A stretch of 64,000 nt of DNA from Hyphomonadaceae bacterium (GTDB lineage Bacteria > Pseudomonadota > Alphaproteobacteria > Caulobacterales > Hyphomonadaceae), in the NCBI GenBank assembly GCA_024743315.1, contig JANSWU010000002.1, forward strand, positions 248,001 through 312,000, given 5' to 3'. The stretch's first letter is position 1; every line of letters starts with the position of its first letter. Made by a program: the position numbers and the translations under genes. Positions 16,439 through 23,582 of the stretch are shown piece after piece. Below the pieces are notes generated by a model. The model did not search any database and was not told where the DNA came from. It saw only the letters and a list, made by a program, of their open reading frames with translations.

Positions 16439-17212
16439 ATGCCCCGAGCTAGAGAAAAAGGCCCTTGGTTCTGGCGCAGCGCCATCGGCGTCATGTTGCT
16501 CAGCGTGGTTGGTCTGTTTTCGGTGGCGGCGTTTAATGCTGCACCCGCCCTGGACCCTGAGAATGAGTGCCGCATGGACCGGCGTGACCCAGCCCATACG
16601 ATCCTGCTGATTGATCAGTCGGATCCGTTTTCTGAGAATGACTTGGCTTGGGTCGACGAATTGATTGACGCAGAAGCGCGCGCCTTGCCTCGCTTCGGCC
16701 GTCTGACCGTCGTGTTGCCGAACAGCGCCCAGCCGTTTGATCCGAAAACGCTCTACGTGCATTGCTCGCCAGGCAGCGTGGAAGATGCCAATCCAATCCT
16801 GCAGAACCCACGCATGATTGACGATACCTGGCGCGAGCATTTCTATCAGCCGTTATCTGAGACGGTCGGGGAAACGCTAAAAACGACCAGCCAACCAAGC
16901 TCGCCGCTGTTTGAAGCGCTATATGCTGTCGGAGACCGAGCTGATTTTCAGTCAAACCGCAGCAATCGCCGCTTGGTGATTGTCTCGGACCTGATGCAGC
17001 ATTCAGACGCCTTCTCCTTCTATCGCAGCGGGGCGGATCTCGCGGCCTATTCAGAGACCTCGGTGTCCGGACAAGTGCCGGTTTTTGACGGCGTAGATGT
17101 CGTCGCGCGGATTGTCCCGCGTCAGGAATATGACCTGCCGATCAGTGAGCTGAAGGCGTTCTGGCGGAACTATTTCGAGAAAACCGGCGCGACTTTCGGC
17201 TCAACCAATTAG
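16439..17212 (+). CDS. Membrane-anchored protein with von Willebrand A-like features
   Basis: 257 aa. One transmembrane helix (about residues 15-33) is followed by an extracytoplasmic or cytosolic domain that looks like a degenerate vWA fold: HTILLIDQSDPFS resembles the first MIDAS strand (Asp-x-Ser, but the second Ser is Pro), and RRLVIVSDLMQHS resembles the strand carrying the third MIDAS Asp. Residues between them are mixed alpha/beta in appearance. It is co-transcribed with the 527-aa membrane protein. Its stop overlaps the convergent gene at 17209 by four bases. Function unknown; the vWA resemblance is by eye only. Confidence 0.72.
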   Translation: MPRAREKGPWFWRSAIGVMLLSVVGLFSVAAFNAAPALDPENECRMDRRDPAHTILLIDQSDPFSENDLAWVDELIDAEARALPRFGRLTVVLPNSAQPFDPKTLYVHCSPGSVEDANPILQNPRMIDDTWREHFYQPLSETVGETLKTTSQPSSPLFEALYAVGDRADFQSNRSNRRLVIVSDLMQHSDAFSFYRSGADLAAYSETSVSGQVPVFDGVDVVARIVPRQEYDLPISELKAFWRNYFEKTGATFGSTN

Positions 17213-17958
17213 AGTCGAGAGATCGCGCTGACCGGCGCATCGAGCAGGAACAGATCTCCAAAGCGCTGGACCTGACCGGTAATCGAGACCGGGTCGGCGA
17301 CATAAGGCAGCAAGTCCTTATTGTGGCCGTAGCCGCCGGAGGTCATCACCATAAGCGCCGATTGTTGCTTCGGATCTTCAACATAGAAGGCGGGCGGCAA
17401 ACCGCTGCGAATGCACAAGCTGGCGCAGGATTTATGCACTTTGCCACTGGACGGCCGCATGGCGCCGAACCAGCATTTGGTGTCCAGGATCTCGCCATTC
17501 AGCGAGACGTTCATGATCGGCTCTGGCGTCGGGAAGGCCAGATCGCCGATCTCGCCGTCGACATCTTCGCGGATCCAATCGAGCCCGTCGATCACCGCAA
17601 TCATTGCATGCCGTCCGCGCTGGATGAGAGAGCCTTGGACCACGACCGGTTTTCCGGCGAGCGCGCCAATCTTGGCACTGACCCCGCATTTGCCTTGACA
17701 ACCGAGCAGCGCAGTTCGGGGCGTGCCATCGAGTTCAAGCGTCCGCAGCATGCCGTACGGCTCAGCGGTCGCGATGCCGCGCCAATCACGCACCTCGCCC
17801 ATATTCCAGGTCCCGGGGCCGGCGGGCTTTTGCAAGGCGGCGATCCCGGTGGCGGTCGCCGCCGTTCCGGCGAGCAGCCCGAGACCTGCGCCAAGGAAAA
17901 ACCGGCGATCGACTTTTGGCGTGTCGGCCCAGCCAATGAAGAAATCATCCTTGTTCAT
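17209..17958 (-). CDS. Exported cysteine-containing protein of the Rieske cluster
   Basis: 249 aa, last gene of the five-gene Rieske operon. The N-terminus holds DRRFFLGAGLGLLAG, an RRxFL-type Tat-like signal or anchor, so the rest is probably periplasmic. The body has two OB-like halves. Conserved-looking cysteines occur as LLGCQGKCGV, in DTKCWFGAM and in KSCASLC, the last two in a block (GKVHKSCASLCIRSGLPPAF) that I recall from other periplasmic redox-associated proteins without a known function. The ATG overlaps the stop of the ferric-reductase/Rieske gene by four bases. A metal or cofactor-binding partner of the membrane protein is plausible but inferred. Confidence 0.72.
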   Translation of the reverse strand: MNKDDFFIGWADTPKVDRRFFLGAGLGLLAGTAATATGIAALQKPAGPGTWNMGEVRDWRGIATAEPYGMLRTLELDGTPRTALLGCQGKCGVSAKIGALAGKPVVVQGSLIQRGRHAMIAVIDGLDWIREDVDGEIGDLAFPTPEPIMNVSLNGEILDTKCWFGAMRPSSGKVHKSCASLCIRSGLPPAFYVEDPKQQSALMVMTSGGYGHNKDLLPYVADPVSITGQVQRFGDLFLLDAPVSAISRL

Positions 17959-19001
17959 GCTGAGGCTCCAATCTGGCTCGGGGTTTGCGGTGTGCCGGGA
18001 GCGTTCGGCTCCGGGTTCACATAGACCACGCCATCGACGATGCGGGTCGCATAGGTGGCGATCTTCTCGGTAAAGGGCGGCGGGCTCTGGCCGTCTTGCA
18101 TACGGTATTGGAAGCCATGCCAGGGGCAGGTGATGCAGCCATCGACAATCTTGCCCTCGCCAAGCGGCCCGCCTTGATGGCGGCAGACATTCGAGACGGC
18201 CGAGATTTTTTCACCATCCCGAAACACGGCGATCGCTTCGCCCTTAGCGGGTCGGATGATCTTGGCGCGCGCGTCTTCCATGTCGGCCACAGCAGCGACT
18301 TTCAGCCAACCGTCCAAACCGTCGCGATGCGATGAACGCAGCCCGGCGATACCCGAGATGAGGTGGAGACCGATAACAGTCACAGCTGAGGCCGCGAGCA
18401 GACCGACATAGATAGGGTCTTTGTTAAACTGGATCGCGCCGAGCGCCACGTGGAGGACCAAGGCGGCATAAGCGAAATAGACTCCCATATGCAGCGTCTT
18501 CCAGAGCCCAGGTCCGAGATTGGCATTCCAGAAATCATGGCTGGTCGCAGCCATCAGGAACAGAATGATCAGGGCGACAAAGCCAAGGCTCTCGAACGGG
18601 AAGCCGGACAGGCTGTCATAGCGCGGATTGGAAATGAACACCGAAACCAAGGGGTTGGTTTCGGAGAAGCCATGATACCACATAATTGTCAGCGCAGCAT
18701 GCATCAGCGCGATCAGGAAGGTCGTCACACCTAAGTGCCTGCGATTGTACAGGAAGGGTTTGAACCGATCGGTGAAGCGCGCCAGTGGGCCGATGCAGAG
18801 GATGAAGGTCAACAGCAGGAAGGCGAGCGTGCCGGTGGCACGGATTACGACTTGTACCGGATGCAAGCTCTCGCCGGCTGGTTGCGTGCTAAAACTGACC
18901 GCGATGAAGCCAACTAAGTAGAGCGCGATCCCAATAAGGAGCCAAAGATCGAAGCGCTTCTTGAACGGTGTCGATTGAACGGCTTTGTAGTCGTGGGACA
19001 T
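17955..19001 (-). CDS. Ferric-reductase-like transmembrane domain fused to a Rieske [2Fe-2S] domain
   Basis: 348 aa. Six hydrophobic segments in residues 18-217 form a ferric-reductase-like heme-binding membrane domain. Histidines such as those in LIALMHAALTIMWYH and TLHMGVYFAYAALVLHVALG lie in helices and could ligate b-type hemes. Residues about 230-325 form a Rieske domain with ligands in CRHQGGPLGEG and CPWHGF, the spacing of ferredoxin-type Rieske proteins. The arrangement suggests electron transfer between membrane hemes or quinone and a cytosolic [2Fe-2S] centre. It overlaps the 49-aa gene by one base and the 249-aa gene by four, so all are translationally coupled. Electron donor and acceptor are not known. 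Confidence 0.88.
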   Translation of the reverse strand: MSHDYKAVQSTPFKKRFDLWLLIGIALYLVGFIAVSFSTQPAGESLHPVQVVIRATGTLAFLLLTFILCIGPLARFTDRFKPFLYNRRHLGVTTFLIALMHAALTIMWYHGFSETNPLVSVFISNPRYDSLSGFPFESLGFVALIILFLMAATSHDFWNANLGPGLWKTLHMGVYFAYAALVLHVALGAIQFNKDPIYVGLLAASAVTVIGLHLISGIAGLRSSHRDGLDGWLKVAAVADMEDARAKIIRPAKGEAIAVFRDGEKISAVSNVCRHQGGPLGEGKIVDGCITCPWHGFQYRMQDGQSPPPFTEKIATYATRIVDGVVYVNPEPNAPGTPQTPSQIGASA

Positions 19002-19150
19002 TAGCGTGCCTCCTCGATCAGTACGTCTGGCAAGGTCTCGTTCACGGGGGCACCGGGGCGCATGACGATCGAAAGCGCAAACAGCCCGGCAATGACTGGG
19101 GCGAGGACGATCCAGATCAGGAGATGCGCGCGTTTATGAGCACGTTTCAT
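19001..19150 (-). CDS. Small single-pass membrane protein (49 aa) of the Rieske operon
   Basis: 49-aa peptide starting MKRAHKRAHLLIWIVL: a basic N-terminus with two His, one transmembrane helix (about residues 10-32) and a short polar tail. It starts four bases inside the end of the 76-aa gene and its stop overlaps the ferric-reductase/Rieske start by one base (TAATG). That packing supports it as a real gene. An upstream in-frame ATG at 19201 would lie within the previous gene. Probably a small subunit of the membrane complex; this is inferred from position only. Confidence 0.65.
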   Translation of the reverse strand: MKRAHKRAHLLIWIVLAPVIAGLFALSIVMRPGAPVNETLPDVLIEEAR

Positions 19151-19377
19151 GAGACGGGCGGCTCCTTCTGCGTGAACAGTTTGGTGAGCATAATCGGCCA
19201 AAGCCCGGCAACTCCCGGCAGGATCAACAGCCGAACGCGAAAGGGCAGGCCTTTGCCTTTCGCGGCGGGATCTATTCGACCCGCACCACCCAACATATAA
19301 ATCAGACCAACCAGCAGTCCGATCCCGAAATAGATCCCGAGCGCGAGAACCAGCGTTTCTGCGGCGGTTTCACTCAT
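19147..19377 (-). CDS. Small two-pass membrane protein (76 aa) of the Rieske operon
   Basis: 76 aa with two hydrophobic helices (TLVLALGIYFGIGLLVGLIYML and VRLLILPGVAGLWPIMLTKLF) joined by a basic loop. No family recognised. It overlaps the Rieske-GltS gene by four bases upstream and the 49-aa gene by four bases downstream, so it is locked into the operon and is likely a small subunit or assembly factor of the membrane protein encoded next. Confidence 0.75.
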   Translation of the reverse strand: MSETAAETLVLALGIYFGIGLLVGLIYMLGGAGRIDPAAKGKGLPFRVRLLILPGVAGLWPIMLTKLFTQKEPPVS

Positions 19378-20990
19378 CGTGTCACCCCGGCATAAGTAAC
19401 CCCGGACAGGTGAGACATTTCGCGGCTACAAGTCACCAGGTCGTCAATGCTGAAGTCCGAGAGACGACTGTGCCCGCAGGCGCGCGCCATGACTTTCATC
19501 AGATCGGTGGAGGCGTCGAAAAAATTCTTCAGCCGTTGGGCGGACTTCTCGATCACCAGGCGCGAAACCAGATGCGGCTTCTGCGTGGCGATGCCAACCG
19601 GACAGTTATTGGTGTGACAGGCGCGCATGGCGATGCAGCCAATCGCTTGCATGGCGGCGTTTGACACCGCGATCGCGTCGGCGCCAAGCGCCAGGGCTTT
19701 GACGAAATCAGCCGGTTTGCGCAGGCCGCCCGTGATCACCAGAGAAACGTCGCTGCGGCCATTTTCGTCGAGGAATTTTCTTGCCCGGGCGAGGGCGGGG
19801 ATGGTCGGCACCGAAATATTGTCCCGGAAAATAATGGGCGCCGCGCCGGTGCCGCCGCCGCGTCCGTCGAGGATGATATAGTCAACACCGACCAAGAGCG
19901 CCGCCTCAATATCTTTTTCAATATGCTGCGCAGACAATTTGTAACCGATCGGAATGCCGCCGGTGCGGTCGCGCACCTCGTCGGCGAAATCTTTGACTTG
20001 CAAACAATCGGTCCAGTCCGGAAAGCGGGGCGGGGAGATCGCGGCTTGGCCTTCTTCGAGCCCGCGAACTTCGGCAATCTTGCCTTTGACTTTTTCCCCT
20101 GGCAGGTGCCCGCCCGTGCCGGTTTTGGCGCCTTGGCCGCCTTTGAAGTGAAAGGCCTGGACCTTGTCGAGCTTGTCCCAGGAAAAGCCAAAGCGCCCAG
20201 ACGCGAGCTCATAGAAATAGCGAGAACAGGCCTCCTGTTCTTCTGGCAGCATACCGCCTTCACCGGAGCAGATGCCGGTGCCGGACAGTTCCGCCCCGCG
20301 CGCGAGCGCGATCTTGGCGGGCTCGGAAAGTGCGCCGAAGCTCATATCAGAAACGAAAAGCGGAATGTCCAAGTGCAGGGGTTTCTGCGCATTGGGGCCG
20401 ATTGTGGTTTTGGTTTCGACCTCCGCGTCGTCGAGCAGCGGCATCTTGTGCAGCTGCGCCGTGATCATCTGGATGTCGTCCCATTTCGGTAGCTCTTTCG
20501 CTGGGACGCCCATGGATTCAGTGATCCCGTGATGCCCTGTTTTCGTCAGGCCATCGCGGGCATATTGCTGGATCAAGCCATTGTTCGGCTCAGCGTGTTC
20601 GCCATGGCTCGGATCCTGGTACAGGCCGAGATATTCATCGCGATTGTATGGCTGAGGGTTCTCATAGCCCCACTGATTGATTTCGTCCGCGTCGACCCGA
20701 ACCTCGCCCTCTTCGAGCCAGGCCTGAAACTTGGGCAAAGCTTCGGAATTCTCATACTCAGAGACCCCGCTATCGAGTCGGTAATCCCAATTGTGGACCC
20801 CGCAAATCAGATTGTCATTGGCATCGACATGCCCGTCTGACATCAGCGCGCCGCGATGCAGACAGCGGCCATAAAACACCGACACCGTGTCATCGAAACG
20901 GACCACGACCAGATCGACCTCGCCAACTATCGCATATTCCGGCTGTCGATCTTCCAGATCATCCCATTTAGCGATGGCGATTTTATTCAT
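19374..20990 (-). CDS. Rieske [2Fe-2S] domain fused to FMN-binding glutamate-synthase-like domain
   Basis: 538 aa. Residues about 5-105 are a Rieske domain with ligands in CLHRGAL and CGVHNW. From about residue 130 follows a complete glutamate-synthase large-subunit FMN domain (GltB_S-like): PLFVSDMSFGALS, GTGICSGEGGM, GGQGAKTGTGGHLPG, DGRGGGTGAAP for FMN phosphate, and cysteines of a 3Fe-4S-type site in CIAMRACHTNNCPVG. The glutaminase domain of true GltB is missing and replaced by the Rieske module. The enzyme is thus probably a flavin oxidoreductase receiving or giving electrons through Rieske. It leads a tightly overlapping five-gene operon and is divergent from another Rieske-fusion gene. 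Substrate unknown. Confidence 0.9.
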   Translation of the reverse strand: MNKIAIAKWDDLEDRQPEYAIVGEVDLVVVRFDDTVSVFYGRCLHRGALMSDGHVDANDNLICGVHNWDYRLDSGVSEYENSEALPKFQAWLEEGEVRVDADEINQWGYENPQPYNRDEYLGLYQDPSHGEHAEPNNGLIQQYARDGLTKTGHHGITESMGVPAKELPKWDDIQMITAQLHKMPLLDDAEVETKTTIGPNAQKPLHLDIPLFVSDMSFGALSEPAKIALARGAELSGTGICSGEGGMLPEEQEACSRYFYELASGRFGFSWDKLDKVQAFHFKGGQGAKTGTGGHLPGEKVKGKIAEVRGLEEGQAAISPPRFPDWTDCLQVKDFADEVRDRTGGIPIGYKLSAQHIEKDIEAALLVGVDYIILDGRGGGTGAAPIIFRDNISVPTIPALARARKFLDENGRSDVSLVITGGLRKPADFVKALALGADAIAVSNAAMQAIGCIAMRACHTNNCPVGIATQKPHLVSRLVIEKSAQRLKNFFDASTDLMKVMARACGHSRLSDFSIDDLVTCSREMSHLSGVTYAGVTR

Positions 20991-21066
20991 TCTGCAGACC
21001 CCCTCAAAACGTGTCTCCCGCCTCTAACGAATGCCGCTCTCCTGCGCCAATCACAAGCCCCCCAAA

Positions 21067-21084
21067 AAATTGTGATCGCAATTT
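21067..21084. promoter_or_regulatory. 18-bp palindrome in the divergent Rieske promoter region
   Basis: AAATTG-T-GATC-G-CAATTT is a palindrome except for one central pair. It lies in the 154-bp region between the two divergent Rieske-fusion genes, about 60 bp from the ATG at 21145 and 77 bp from the ATG at 20990. A shared operator for both operons is likely; the regulator is not evident. Confidence 0.5.
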
Positions 21085-21144
21085 CATATGTCTACGATAG
21101 AGTTTTTCGATAGGGCAGCGACAGGCAAGCGAGGGGGTTAATCC

Positions 21145-23139
21145 ATGACTGAAACCAAAACCACACTGATCTGGCATAAGGTCGCTGAACCCAATGAGGT
21201 CTCAGAGGGACGGGTGAAATCTGCCACGGCTGGCACCCAATCGATCGCCTTAGTTCATTTCCAGGGACAATACGCGGCGATGGATAATAAGTGCCCGCAC
21301 CAGGGCGGTCCTCTGGGCGAGGGCTCAATCGAGCAGGGCATTGACGATCAATGCTGGTTGCGGTGTCCCTGGCATGGTTGGGATTTTGATCCCCTTACAG
21401 GAAAACCTCCAGGCGGGCATGAAGATACCGGCCAGGAAATGTTCGATGTCCAAGTCCGCGACGATGGCGTCTATGTCGGCGTCCCGGCTTTGCCGCCGCG
21501 ACAGCGCACAATTGCCGATGTCATGGCCGAGACGATGACCAATTGGGGCGTGTCCAGCGTGTTTGGCATGGTCGGACATTCCAATCTTGGCCTCGCCGAT
21601 GCGCTCAGGGTGCAAGAGGCAGAGGGCAAGCTCAAATATTATGGCATCCGGCACGAGGGCGCGGCCGCTTTTGCGATCTCCGGCTATGGCAAGCTGACGG
21701 GGCACCCCGCCGCCGCGCTGACCATTGCCGGCCCAGGCGCGACCAATCTTTTGACAGGGCTGTGGGACGCAAAGGTCGATGGCGCGCCGGCGCTGGCACT
21801 GACGGGCCAGGTCCAGGACCAGGTCGTCGGCGTGCACGCGTTTCAGGACATTGATCTCGAGGCCGCGTTCGAAGCGGTAGCTGAGTTTTCCGAGACTGTA
21901 CATCTGACCTCGGACCACGCGCTCTTGATGACCCAGGCGATCAAGACGTCGATTCTCAAACGCGGCGTCGGCCATCTTGTGTTCCCGGACAATGTTCAGC
22001 CCAAACCCGCCGCAGAGGACGCCAAAGCCTATGGTCCCGCAGGCCGGATGGCCGACATGGCGGTGGCACCGCCGCCTTCTGCGGTCGAGGCGGCAAGCAA
22101 ACTCCTACAGGGTGCCAAGCGCCCGATGATCATTGTCGGCTATGGCGCCCTGCAAGGCATGGAGCAGGTCATTGCGCTGGCCGAGACACTCGGAGCCCCG
22201 ATTGCCACCACGTTCAAGGCCAAGGGCCAGATCGGCGATGATCATCCGCTCGCGGCAGGCGTGATGGGACGGTCCGGGACACCGATCGCAAGCTGGTTCA
22301 TGAATGAAGCGGATCTGCTCCTGGTCTTCGGCGCGAGTTTCTCTGACCATACCGGCATATATGAAGGCGCGCCGACCATTCAGGTCGATACCGATCCGAT
22401 GCGGCTCGCCAAACGCCATCCGGTCACGGTCCCGGTCATGGGCGATGTCGCTGTGACGGCAGACTTGTTGAAAGCCAAGCTCGAGCGCGGCGGCGCGGCG
22501 GCCATGGACCTACGCGGCGAAGTGGCGGAGCGCTGGAAACTGTGGCGCGCTGAAAAAGCCAGCCGCGTCGAGGAAGATCGCGGCAAAGGGGTCTCAGCGG
22601 CCGCGGTGTTCGAAGCCCTGACCAAAGCCGCACCCGCCGACGCCATCCTGCCGGTCGATGTGGGCAACAATACCTATTCCTTTGGTCGCTATTTCGAACC
22701 GACCGGGCAGCAGCGCGTTTTGATGTCCGGCTATCTCGGCTCGATCGGGTTCTCTTTCCCGGCGGCGATGGGGGCCTGGGCGGCGACACAGGAAGATGGG
22801 CCTTACAAGGGCCGCAAAGTGATATCGGTCTCCGGCGATGGCGGTTTTGGGCAATATGCGATGGAGTTCACCACGGCGGTCAAATACGGCATGAACATCA
22901 CGCATGTGCTGATGAACAATTCCGAGCTCGGCAAGATTACCAAAGAGCAGAAAGCCGCCGAGTTTGAGGTCTGGCAGACCAGCCAGGTCAATCCGAGCTT
23001 TGCCGGATTCGCGCGCTCCTGCGGGGGCATGGGTGAGCTCGTCAAAACGCGCGAGCAATTGACCGAGGCGCTGGCCAAAGCGATTGCACATGACGGGCCG
23101 TCTCTGGTCGAGGTGATCACCGACGCGGAGTTGATGTGA
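21145..23139 (+). CDS. Rieske [2Fe-2S] domain fused to thiamine-diphosphate-dependent enzyme
   Basis: 664 aa. Residues about 8-112 are a ferredoxin-like Rieske domain, ligands in CPHQGGPLGEG and CPWHGWDFDPLTG. From about residue 120 there is a full three-domain ThDP enzyme of the acetolactate synthase/pyruvate oxidase superfamily: the activating Glu in YGIRHEGAAAFAISGYGKLTG, FAD-type middle domain (RPMIIVGYGALQGM), and the ThDP motif GDGGFGQYAMEF...LMNN. Ordinary family members are about 550 aa, and the extra length is the Rieske module. It could oxidatively decarboxylate a 2-oxo acid with electrons leaving through Rieske, which is inferred. The last bases overlap the DUF1622 gene (TGATG). 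Confidence 0.9.
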   Translation: MTETKTTLIWHKVAEPNEVSEGRVKSATAGTQSIALVHFQGQYAAMDNKCPHQGGPLGEGSIEQGIDDQCWLRCPWHGWDFDPLTGKPPGGHEDTGQEMFDVQVRDDGVYVGVPALPPRQRTIADVMAETMTNWGVSSVFGMVGHSNLGLADALRVQEAEGKLKYYGIRHEGAAAFAISGYGKLTGHPAAALTIAGPGATNLLTGLWDAKVDGAPALALTGQVQDQVVGVHAFQDIDLEAAFEAVAEFSETVHLTSDHALLMTQAIKTSILKRGVGHLVFPDNVQPKPAAEDAKAYGPAGRMADMAVAPPPSAVEAASKLLQGAKRPMIIVGYGALQGMEQVIALAETLGAPIATTFKAKGQIGDDHPLAAGVMGRSGTPIASWFMNEADLLLVFGASFSDHTGIYEGAPTIQVDTDPMRLAKRHPVTVPVMGDVAVTADLLKAKLERGGAAAMDLRGEVAERWKLWRAEKASRVEEDRGKGVSAAAVFEALTKAAPADAILPVDVGNNTYSFGRYFEPTGQQRVLMSGYLGSIGFSFPAAMGAWAATQEDGPYKGRKVISVSGDGGFGQYAMEFTTAVKYGMNITHVLMNNSELGKITKEQKAAEFEVWQTSQVNPSFAGFARSCGGMGELVKTREQLTEALAKAIAHDGPSLVEVITDAELM

Positions 23140-23582
23140 TGTTTGCGTCAGACGGTGGGCACATGATGGAAGGCATGACTGGCGGGACCTCTCTGGAACA
23201 CTTGCCGTTCGGTTTGGATGAGCCGGTGATGCACACGCTGGAAGGTCTGGCGATCTGCATTGATCTGATCGGTGTTGGTCTGATCCTGTTTGGCTTTTTC
23301 GTGTCGCTGATCCGATTGGTCGGTGGGCTCCGACATGGTATTGGGCTTACTCGAAATCTCAGTCATATCAGTGCCGTCCGGACCATTCTTGGGACTTATA
23401 TTCTGACTGGGCTTGAGTTTATGATTGCCTCAGACATTATCCATACGGTAATTACGCGTGAATTTTCCGATCTGATCTTTGTCGGGCTTCTGGTGCTGAT
23501 CCGGACCGCGATTTCCTTCTTCCTCGGCCGCGAGATCCTCGAGATCCAACAGGAAGAGACTCAGAAAAGGACGGTCGCCTAG
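23139..23582 (+). CDS. DUF1622 family membrane protein
   Basis: 147 aa, three transmembrane segments: LEGLAICIDLIGVGLILFGF, YILTGLEFMIASDII and LIFVGLLVLIRTAISFF, with the conserved FxLGREI ending of DUF1622. The N-terminal 25 residues are Met/Gly/His-rich. I start at the ATG at 23139, which overlaps the upstream stop as TGATG and has GGAG eight bases before it; a GTG at 23136 is possible. It forms a two-gene operon with the Rieske-ThDP enzyme and may be its membrane partner. Its stop overlaps that of the convergent modC by four bases. Confidence 0.85.
   Translation: MFASDGGHMMEGMTGGTSLEHLPFGLDEPVMHTLEGLAICIDLIGVGLILFGFFVSLIRLVGGLRHGIGLTRNLSHISAVRTILGTYILTGLEFMIASDIIHTVITREFSDLIFVGLLVLIRTAISFFLGREILEIQQEETQKRTVA

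Follow-up and report, generated by a model that had tools for sequence, protein, structure and literature searches.

Why should three proteins built on unrelated catalytic or membrane domains, encoded within one small gene cluster, each carry a Rieske [2Fe-2S] domain of its own? This question is raised by a locus in a 64,000-nucleotide stretch of the 3.3-Mb genome of a marine, Henriciella-like member of the Hyphomonadaceae (C8:248001-312000; the window, by which we mean this whole stretch). A sequence-only reading of the window had described a seven-gene divergent cluster with a 154-bp shared region, overlaps of 1-4 bases and three different Rieske fusions, and all of these features were reproduced at the same position. 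The Rieske profile PF00355 exceeded its Pfam cut-off (20.3 bits) in a fusion with a glutamate-synthase-type flavin mononucleotide (FMN) domain (Rieske-GltS), in one with a ferric reductase-like membrane domain (FRD-Rieske) and in one with a thiamine diphosphate (ThDP) enzyme (Rieske-ThDP). It was found that the three Rieske proteins co-occur genome-wide, beyond chance. Each protein of the cluster is a variant of a known family; the system-level reading that we infer from their sequences is novel and unproven. An open-access literature search yielded no description of the combination, in agreement with the earlier statement that no described system of this composition was known.

Genome-wide co-occurrence of the three Rieske proteins

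A single scan of genome contigs for relatives of Rieske-ThDP gave 376 encoding stretches, of which the best 80 were taken as the locus set; the closest named loci were from Henriciella metagenome-assembled genomes, and the set includes close relatives, its counts not being independent. Whole genomes were searched in samples of 101 relatives, 289 evenly drawn Alphaproteobacteria (class sample) and 170 Pseudomonadota (phylum sample), and in 50 genomes picked from the 80 loci, of which 59 were candidates and 21 were not, after nine candidates, mostly near-duplicates, had been removed. A GltS match running from the N-terminus was counted as Rieske-GltS, and a later start (e.g. residue 133-134) meant that the Rieske region was not covered; the match in genome G576, which starts at residue 110 and has an internal stop, was omitted from comparisons of these two groups.

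In the class sample, Rieske-ThDP was found in 13 genomes, FRD-Rieske in 15, the cluster's cysteine-containing (Cys) protein in 14 and a GltS match in 12, eight of them from the N-terminus and four starting at residue 133-134. Seven of the eight Rieske-GltS genomes also had Rieske-ThDP, and FRD-Rieske was present in the same seven (Fisher p ~4e-10 and ~2e-9, respectively, kinship being ignored). These seven genomes represent five families, and at the thresholds used no genome carried exactly two of the three. Adjacency was not necessary, as the three genes lay on three contigs in G222 (an assembly of about 20) and within ~67 kb of each other, non-adjacent, in G109.

The other samples gave a similar picture. 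Among the 101 relatives, 22 genomes had FRD-Rieske, always together with the Cys protein, which was found in 24. Twelve of their 16 GltS matches reached the N-terminus, one started at residue 133 (G063) and three were cut or partial (G005, G026, G087); with these three and fragments of Rieske-ThDP counted, 15 genomes had Rieske-GltS, accompanied by Rieske-ThDP in 13 and by FRD-Rieske in 15. Rieske-GltS was present in 39 and FRD-Rieske in 31 of the 50 locus genomes (both 28, only Rieske-GltS 11, only FRD-Rieske three, neither eight), and nine of the 11 with Rieske-GltS only were Gammaproteobacteria. The phylum sample contained 23 GltS matches, eight N-terminal and 15 starting at residue 106 or later (G576 included), and all three of its Rieske-ThDP genomes had Rieske-GltS.

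Furthermore, Rieske-ThDP was encoded on four haloarchaeal plasmids (59-61% identical) and on a Mycobacteroides plasmid (52%), and three of the haloarchaeal plasmids also carried Rieske-GltS (~59-60% identical; the Rieske domain was confirmed by Pfam for one). Rieske-ThDP and Rieske-GltS thus recur in Gammaproteobacteria and on haloarchaeal plasmids. FRD-Rieske makes up a unit with the small membrane proteins and the Cys protein that can be separated from the other two Rieske proteins, which recur without it; among the genomes searched for FRD-Rieske, this unit was confined to Alphaproteobacteria. Co-occurrence beyond the strain, on which the sequence-only reading had staked itself, was therefore found, as the parts recur together across lineages, sometimes non-adjacent.

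That each module is found without the others in some genomes, with a patchy distribution and a plasmid location in haloarchaea, would agree with a shared habitat and mobile islands without any joint pathway, each Rieske domain serving its own enzyme through a house ferredoxin or ferredoxin reductase. We consider this unlikely, because Rieske-GltS tracks both other Rieske proteins, whereas GltS proteins starting past the Rieske region tracked neither partner in the class sample (0/4). When the class and phylum samples were pooled, Rieske-ThDP accompanied 8 of 14 Rieske-GltS but 0 of 17 later-starting proteins (p 0.0004, uncorrected and confounded with lineage; 0.0002-0.0008 upon moving or removing single doubtful genomes or the window genome).

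Fusion proteins and their exchangeable iron-sulfur modules

All three Rieske centres look functional from their conserved ligands. In Rieske-ThDP (PF00355, 60.9 bits; TPP_enzyme N, M and C domains all above cut-offs), the ligands C50, H52, C74 and H77 were invariant in 44 aligned sequences (39 from the window and genome-contig loci, four from haloarchaeal plasmids and one from the Mycobacteroides plasmid). The central domain, the part that bears on a possible FAD cofactor, was conserved as well, and so were E171 and D565-G566-G567, with N592 nearly invariant; we take these to be the catalytic Glu and the GDG...N motif of ThDP enzymes. Of 88 distinct ThDP open reading frames of this family in the fetched loci, 86 had the Rieske part (82 alone, four with CDGSH domains), and the two without it were a piece at the end of a contig and half of a split frame; the fusion is therefore not an assembly artefact. 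The best match in both sequence and structure was PoxB/pyruvate:quinone oxidoreductase (PQO; E. coli PoxB 3eya, C. glutamicum PQO 9ev6), which shares the three ThDP domains, the catalytic Glu and the GDG..N motif. However, identity is only ~27%, the N-terminal Rieske fusion sets Rieske-ThDP apart, and the membrane-binding C-terminal extension of PoxB is missing, the last residue, 664, aligning with PoxB 532 (3eya; 3ey9 has 572 residues). The protein scored 285.4 bits against the PoxB-type pyruvate dehydrogenase equivalog NF006591, whose cut-off is 792.

Rieske-GltS (PF00355, 46.5 bits; Glu_synthase PF01645, 305.5 bits) retained its Rieske ligands C43/H45/C63/H66 in 39-40 of 41 aligned rows and, in all 41, C452/C458/C463, whose C-x5-C-x4-C pattern is of the [3Fe-4S] type. 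It has the FMN/[3Fe-4S] domain in common with the glutamate synthase large subunit GltB and lacks the glutaminase and C-terminal domains of the latter; against the full-length glutamate synthase equivalog it reached 139.6 bits (cut-off 1047).

The N-terminal module of GltS proved to be exchangeable. Among distinct orthologs in the fetched loci with a core at least 60% identical, 50 carried a Rieske domain and 10 two CDGSH motifs (52 and 10 before duplicates and two distant paralogs were dropped), and the remaining four were two contig-end pieces and two whose N-terminal frame was disturbed or split. All 10 fetched Rieske-less matches had the double CDGSH (checked by Pfam on one) and shared 64-68% identity with the window protein over the GltS core. 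It appears from these sequences that a CDGSH module can take the place of Rieske on GltS. In the available part of a 2011 catalogue (PMC3174974), tandem CDGSH plus the glutamate synthase FMN-binding domain is a known fusion, the type 5 CDGSH proteins; relative to that account, the window protein has an orthologous Glu_synthase core and likewise an N-terminal [2Fe-2S] module, but this is Rieske instead of tandem CDGSH, and it accompanies Rieske-ThDP and FRD-Rieske in many genomes. The class sample also contains four Rieske-ThDP proteins in which a CDGSH pair precedes the Rieske domain, their genomes having neither Rieske-GltS nor FRD-Rieske; three of these proteins (L153, L154 and L156, Table 1) present a multi-cluster Fe-S chain joined to a ThDP enzyme.

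Swappable Fe-S modules on such different catalytic units could also be read as redox sensors gating the fused enzymes and not as electron carriers. We regard this as very improbable, since CDGSH, Fer4_19 and Rieske chained in one polypeptide resemble a wire, and the FRD hemes and the [3Fe-4S]/FMN pair of GltS require an electron partner, as is known for these families.

In FRD-Rieske (PF00355, 58.3 bits; Ferric_reduct PF01794, 58 bits with a cut-off of 28), five histidines of predicted heme-binding type (H89, H101, H155, H171, H184) and the C-terminal Rieske ligands C273/H275/C292/H295 were kept in 39 of 39 aligned rows. None of the three Rieske motifs has the additional disulfide cysteines that mark the high-potential bc1 type, and all should presumably be of the low-potential ferredoxin type. 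With MsrPQ, FRD-Rieske shares a multi-pass heme-type domain and an exported partner encoded alongside, and it scored 47.2 bits against the MsrQ equivalog (cut-off 130). In the consulted portion of a survey of the ferric reductase domain superfamily (PMC3591440), a bacterial architecture model is listed with Rieske and FMN; set against MsrPQ and that portion, FRD-Rieske carries Rieske where flavin/NADPH domains are found.

The putative partner is the Cys protein, in which C162, H175, C178 and C182 were invariant in 35 of 35 sequences and may form a metal or cofactor site. The top structural matches of its AlphaFold2 model were OB folds, two of which are predicted, whereas the exported partner in MsrPQ is the molybdopterin subunit MsrP; an identity with MsrP was ruled out by this model and by the absence of any Pfam match at E<=1. 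The protein had been called exported; because a twin-arginine-like motif was present in only 17 of 32 relatives, it is better termed membrane-anchored. No Pfam match at E<=1 was obtained for the 49-aa membrane protein either, and the two matches of the 76-aa membrane protein were far under cut-off. For the seven window proteins no NCBIfam model reached its cut-off among the matches listed (for Rieske-ThDP, the best 25 of 59).

In one genome without a Cys protein match, a Rieske-FMN_reductase fusion, a fourth Rieske fusion type, directly follows the FRD-Rieske gene (L148 6257-7384). This arrangement suggests that FRD-Rieske can accept electrons from soluble Rieske flavoproteins.

A proposed keto-acid-driven electron route

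Putting these data together, we tentatively propose, as a plausible reading, that the locus encodes a conserved redox module for redox or electrophile stress, composed of a keto-acid-oxidising ThDP enzyme, a flavoenzyme and interchangeable low-potential [2Fe-2S] plugs, to which Alphaproteobacteria would add a membrane-spanning heme protein and an exported protein with OB folds. Electrons would probably pass between the partner proteins, and their direction would be outward with only slight preference. The substrate of Rieske-ThDP would be an alpha-keto acid, most likely pyruvate, oxidised in the manner of pyruvate oxidases, and the ThDP intermediate would hand its electrons one at a time to the enzyme's own Rieske centre and not straight to quinone or oxygen. 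Electrons entering Rieske-GltS by its Rieske centre may then reach [3Fe-4S]/FMN and serve to reduce a substrate, or the enzyme may work in reverse. In Alphaproteobacteria, FRD-Rieske would accept cytosolic electrons from Rieske to Rieske and pass them over two b hemes to the outside, where the membrane-anchored double-OB-fold protein with its C-H-C-C site might receive them in an MsrPQ-like manner. The physiological role would be stress defence or repair driven by a keto acid instead of NAD(P)H.

The case for stress comes from gene neighbours. In one family of another class, GltS relatives are accompanied by genes for old yellow enzyme (OYE)/N-ethylmaleimide-reductase-like proteins, nitroreductase, glutathione S-transferase (GST), pirin, YceI and cytochrome b561, MsrA adjoins one Rieske-GltS there, and some haloarchaeal neighbours are annotated merA, DsrE and pirin. 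Together with pairs of an extracytoplasmic function (ECF) sigma factor and a zinc-finger anti-sigma factor near Rieske-ThDP, these neighbours point, by association, to electrophile or oxidant stress, a role that the module may possibly have.

Neighbourhoods were counted in the 54 of 80 loci with at least 8 kb on either side of Rieske-ThDP (all 80 in brackets). Rieske-GltS was near Rieske-ThDP in 34 (46), FRD-Rieske in 32 (42), the Cys protein in 32 (41), the 76-aa protein in 31 (41), the 49-aa protein in 25 (29), a Na+/H+ exchanger (PF00999) in 23 (26), DUF5996 in 12 (19), DUF1622 in seven (10) and the ECF/anti-sigma pair in seven (8); seven of the 54 had no scored neighbour gene. As a single seven-gene set, the cluster first proposed held only in part: its parts recur jointly, but they are no obligate unit, the FRD unit being separable. 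The coupling of DUF1622 (PF07784, 66.9 bits) to Rieske-ThDP is real in the window, where the genes overlap by 4 bases; because it recurs in so few of the 80 loci, DUF1622 is a lineage-specific, local passenger.

Within 10 kb of Rieske-ThDP, clusters of AMP-binding (acyl-CoA-ligase type), enoyl-CoA-hydratase and short-chain dehydrogenase genes were found in 15, 13 and 11 of the 80 loci. GltS-family FMN domains are known to oxidise or aminate amino or imino acids in N-methylglutamate metabolism. A catabolic or respiratory route would accommodate these facts: Rieske-ThDP would decarboxylate a specialised keto acid, Rieske-GltS would oxidise or aminate a linked amino or imino acid, and FRD-Rieske would discharge to quinone or the outside, for nutrition and not stress. 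The GltS-type domain without glutaminase fits such a route, as does the structure comparison, in which oxidases, acetolactate synthases and acyl-CoA lyases scored closely for the ThDP fold. We nevertheless hold it to be rather unlikely, since the CoA-type genes seldom lay within 400 bp of a core gene (1/15, 2/13 and 3/11 loci) and did so on the same strand only once, whereas open-reading-frame clustering placed the exchanger that close in 21 of 25 loci and DUF5996 in 16 of 17 (same strand in 17 and in all 16, respectively). ECF/anti-sigma and electrophile-defence neighbours also fit stress regulation better.

Several observations weigh against the proposed stress module. The CoA-type genes do recur near Rieske-ThDP, though seldom adjacent, and the stress context comes mostly from GltS relatives, the window's own flanks (modABC) adding nothing. 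In the class sample, 6 of 13 Rieske-ThDP genomes lack both Rieske-GltS and FRD-Rieske, and 8 of 15 FRD-Rieske genomes lack both Rieske-ThDP and Rieske-GltS. Rieske-ThDP is absent from five genomes with Rieske-GltS, all belonging to one family outside Alphaproteobacteria (G576, if included, makes six), and in Aliikangiella (G405, L057) Rieske-ThDP coexists with a GltS match from residue 133, past the Rieske region. Moreover, the co-occurrence statistics ignore phylogeny and shared habitat.

More broadly, and with some doubt, these proteins might represent an as yet undescribed type of redox system, present in bacteria and, as far as its ThDP and GltS components are concerned, also in haloarchaea. 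Standardised [2Fe-2S] plug-ins of the Rieske or CDGSH kind, exchanged together in evolution, would let otherwise unrelated enzymes communicate, and a keto acid could then power reductions both within the cell and beyond it with no need for NAD(P)H. The communicating enzymes could conceivably be the ThDP oxidase, the GltS-type flavoenzyme and the transmembrane heme conduit, and in one locus also the FMN reductase. Pyruvate:ferredoxin oxidoreductases and flavin-linked pyruvate oxidases also draw electrons from keto acids; a ThDP enzyme connected to a Rieske centre would, if true, be a further way. The presence of matching plugs on several partners suggests a rule in which the Fe-S module determines which proteins communicate, and the hypothetical genes for the C-H-C-C OB protein, the small membrane proteins and DUF5996, as well as the CDGSH-GltS proteins, would gain a context.

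Locus layout and further observations

The minus-strand operon runs from Rieske-GltS through the 76-aa and 49-aa proteins and FRD-Rieske to the Cys protein with successive overlaps of 4, 4, 1 and 4 bases, and the plus-strand operon consists of Rieske-ThDP and DUF1622 (Table 1).

Table 1. Features of the window locus and Rieske-ThDP variants at other loci
Feature	Position	Strand	Description
Membrane-anchored Cys protein	17209..17958	-	249 aa; N-terminal helix, two predicted OB folds
FRD-Rieske	17955..19001	-	348 aa; ferric-reductase-like membrane domain and C-terminal Rieske (Pfam)
49-aa membrane protein	19001..19150	-	ATG start; 66 aa if TTG at 19201 is used
76-aa membrane protein	19147..19377	-	Open reading frame
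Rieske-GltS	19374..20990	-	538 aa; Rieske and glutamate-synthase FMN/[3Fe-4S] domain, without glutaminase domain (Pfam)
Divergent promoter region	20991..21144		154 bp between both operons
Candidate operator	21050..21076		Perfect inverted repeat ATCACAA-N13-TTGTGAT inside the divergent region
Rieske-ThDP	21145..23139	+	664 aa; Rieske fused to pyruvate-oxidase-like ThDP enzyme (Pfam)
DUF1622 membrane protein	23136..23582	+	148 aa; Pfam PF07784
Rieske-ThDP with CDGSH pair alone	L151 8016-10409		
Rieske-ThDP with CDGSH pair and Fer4_19 ([4Fe-4S]-type domain)	L153 7941-10718; L154 8488-11148; L156 7557-10190		

The candidate operator had one match in the window and none in 100 shuffles, and a similar sequence was seen by eye in several Henriciella-type loci.

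Cation exchangers are also encoded near two plasmid copies of Rieske-ThDP: a Na+/H+ antiporter lies directly downstream in Halorarius, and in Mycobacteroides the opposite strand carries, 2-5 kb upstream, genes for a cation/proton antiporter and an FMN-reductase-like protein. With DUF5996 (PF19459) or a diverged relative (e.g. L036 10364-11107, L075 9147-10001), 18 of 19 loci were without FRD-Rieske nearby.

CDGSH-GltS or Rieske-GltS clusters of another class (L128 8103-16654, L136 2375-9615, L137 6382-14711, L138 1380-7082) contain genes for LysR, cytochrome b561, YceI, nitroreductase or OYE, GST and pirin; Pfam was run on the L128 members and the L136 GltS, and the other L136-L138 genes were assigned by likeness. 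From their gene content these clusters look like electrophile defence.

Beside the window cluster, positions 16439-17212 encode a 257-aa protein, convergent with the Cys-protein gene, which gave no match in a Pfam search and was clustered in four of the 80 loci, each from a close relative. At the corresponding chromosomal site of a congeneric genome (L117 9134-10474), only broken pieces of the Cys-protein and FRD-Rieske genes remain, followed by a modC-like gene, and the module is lost there.
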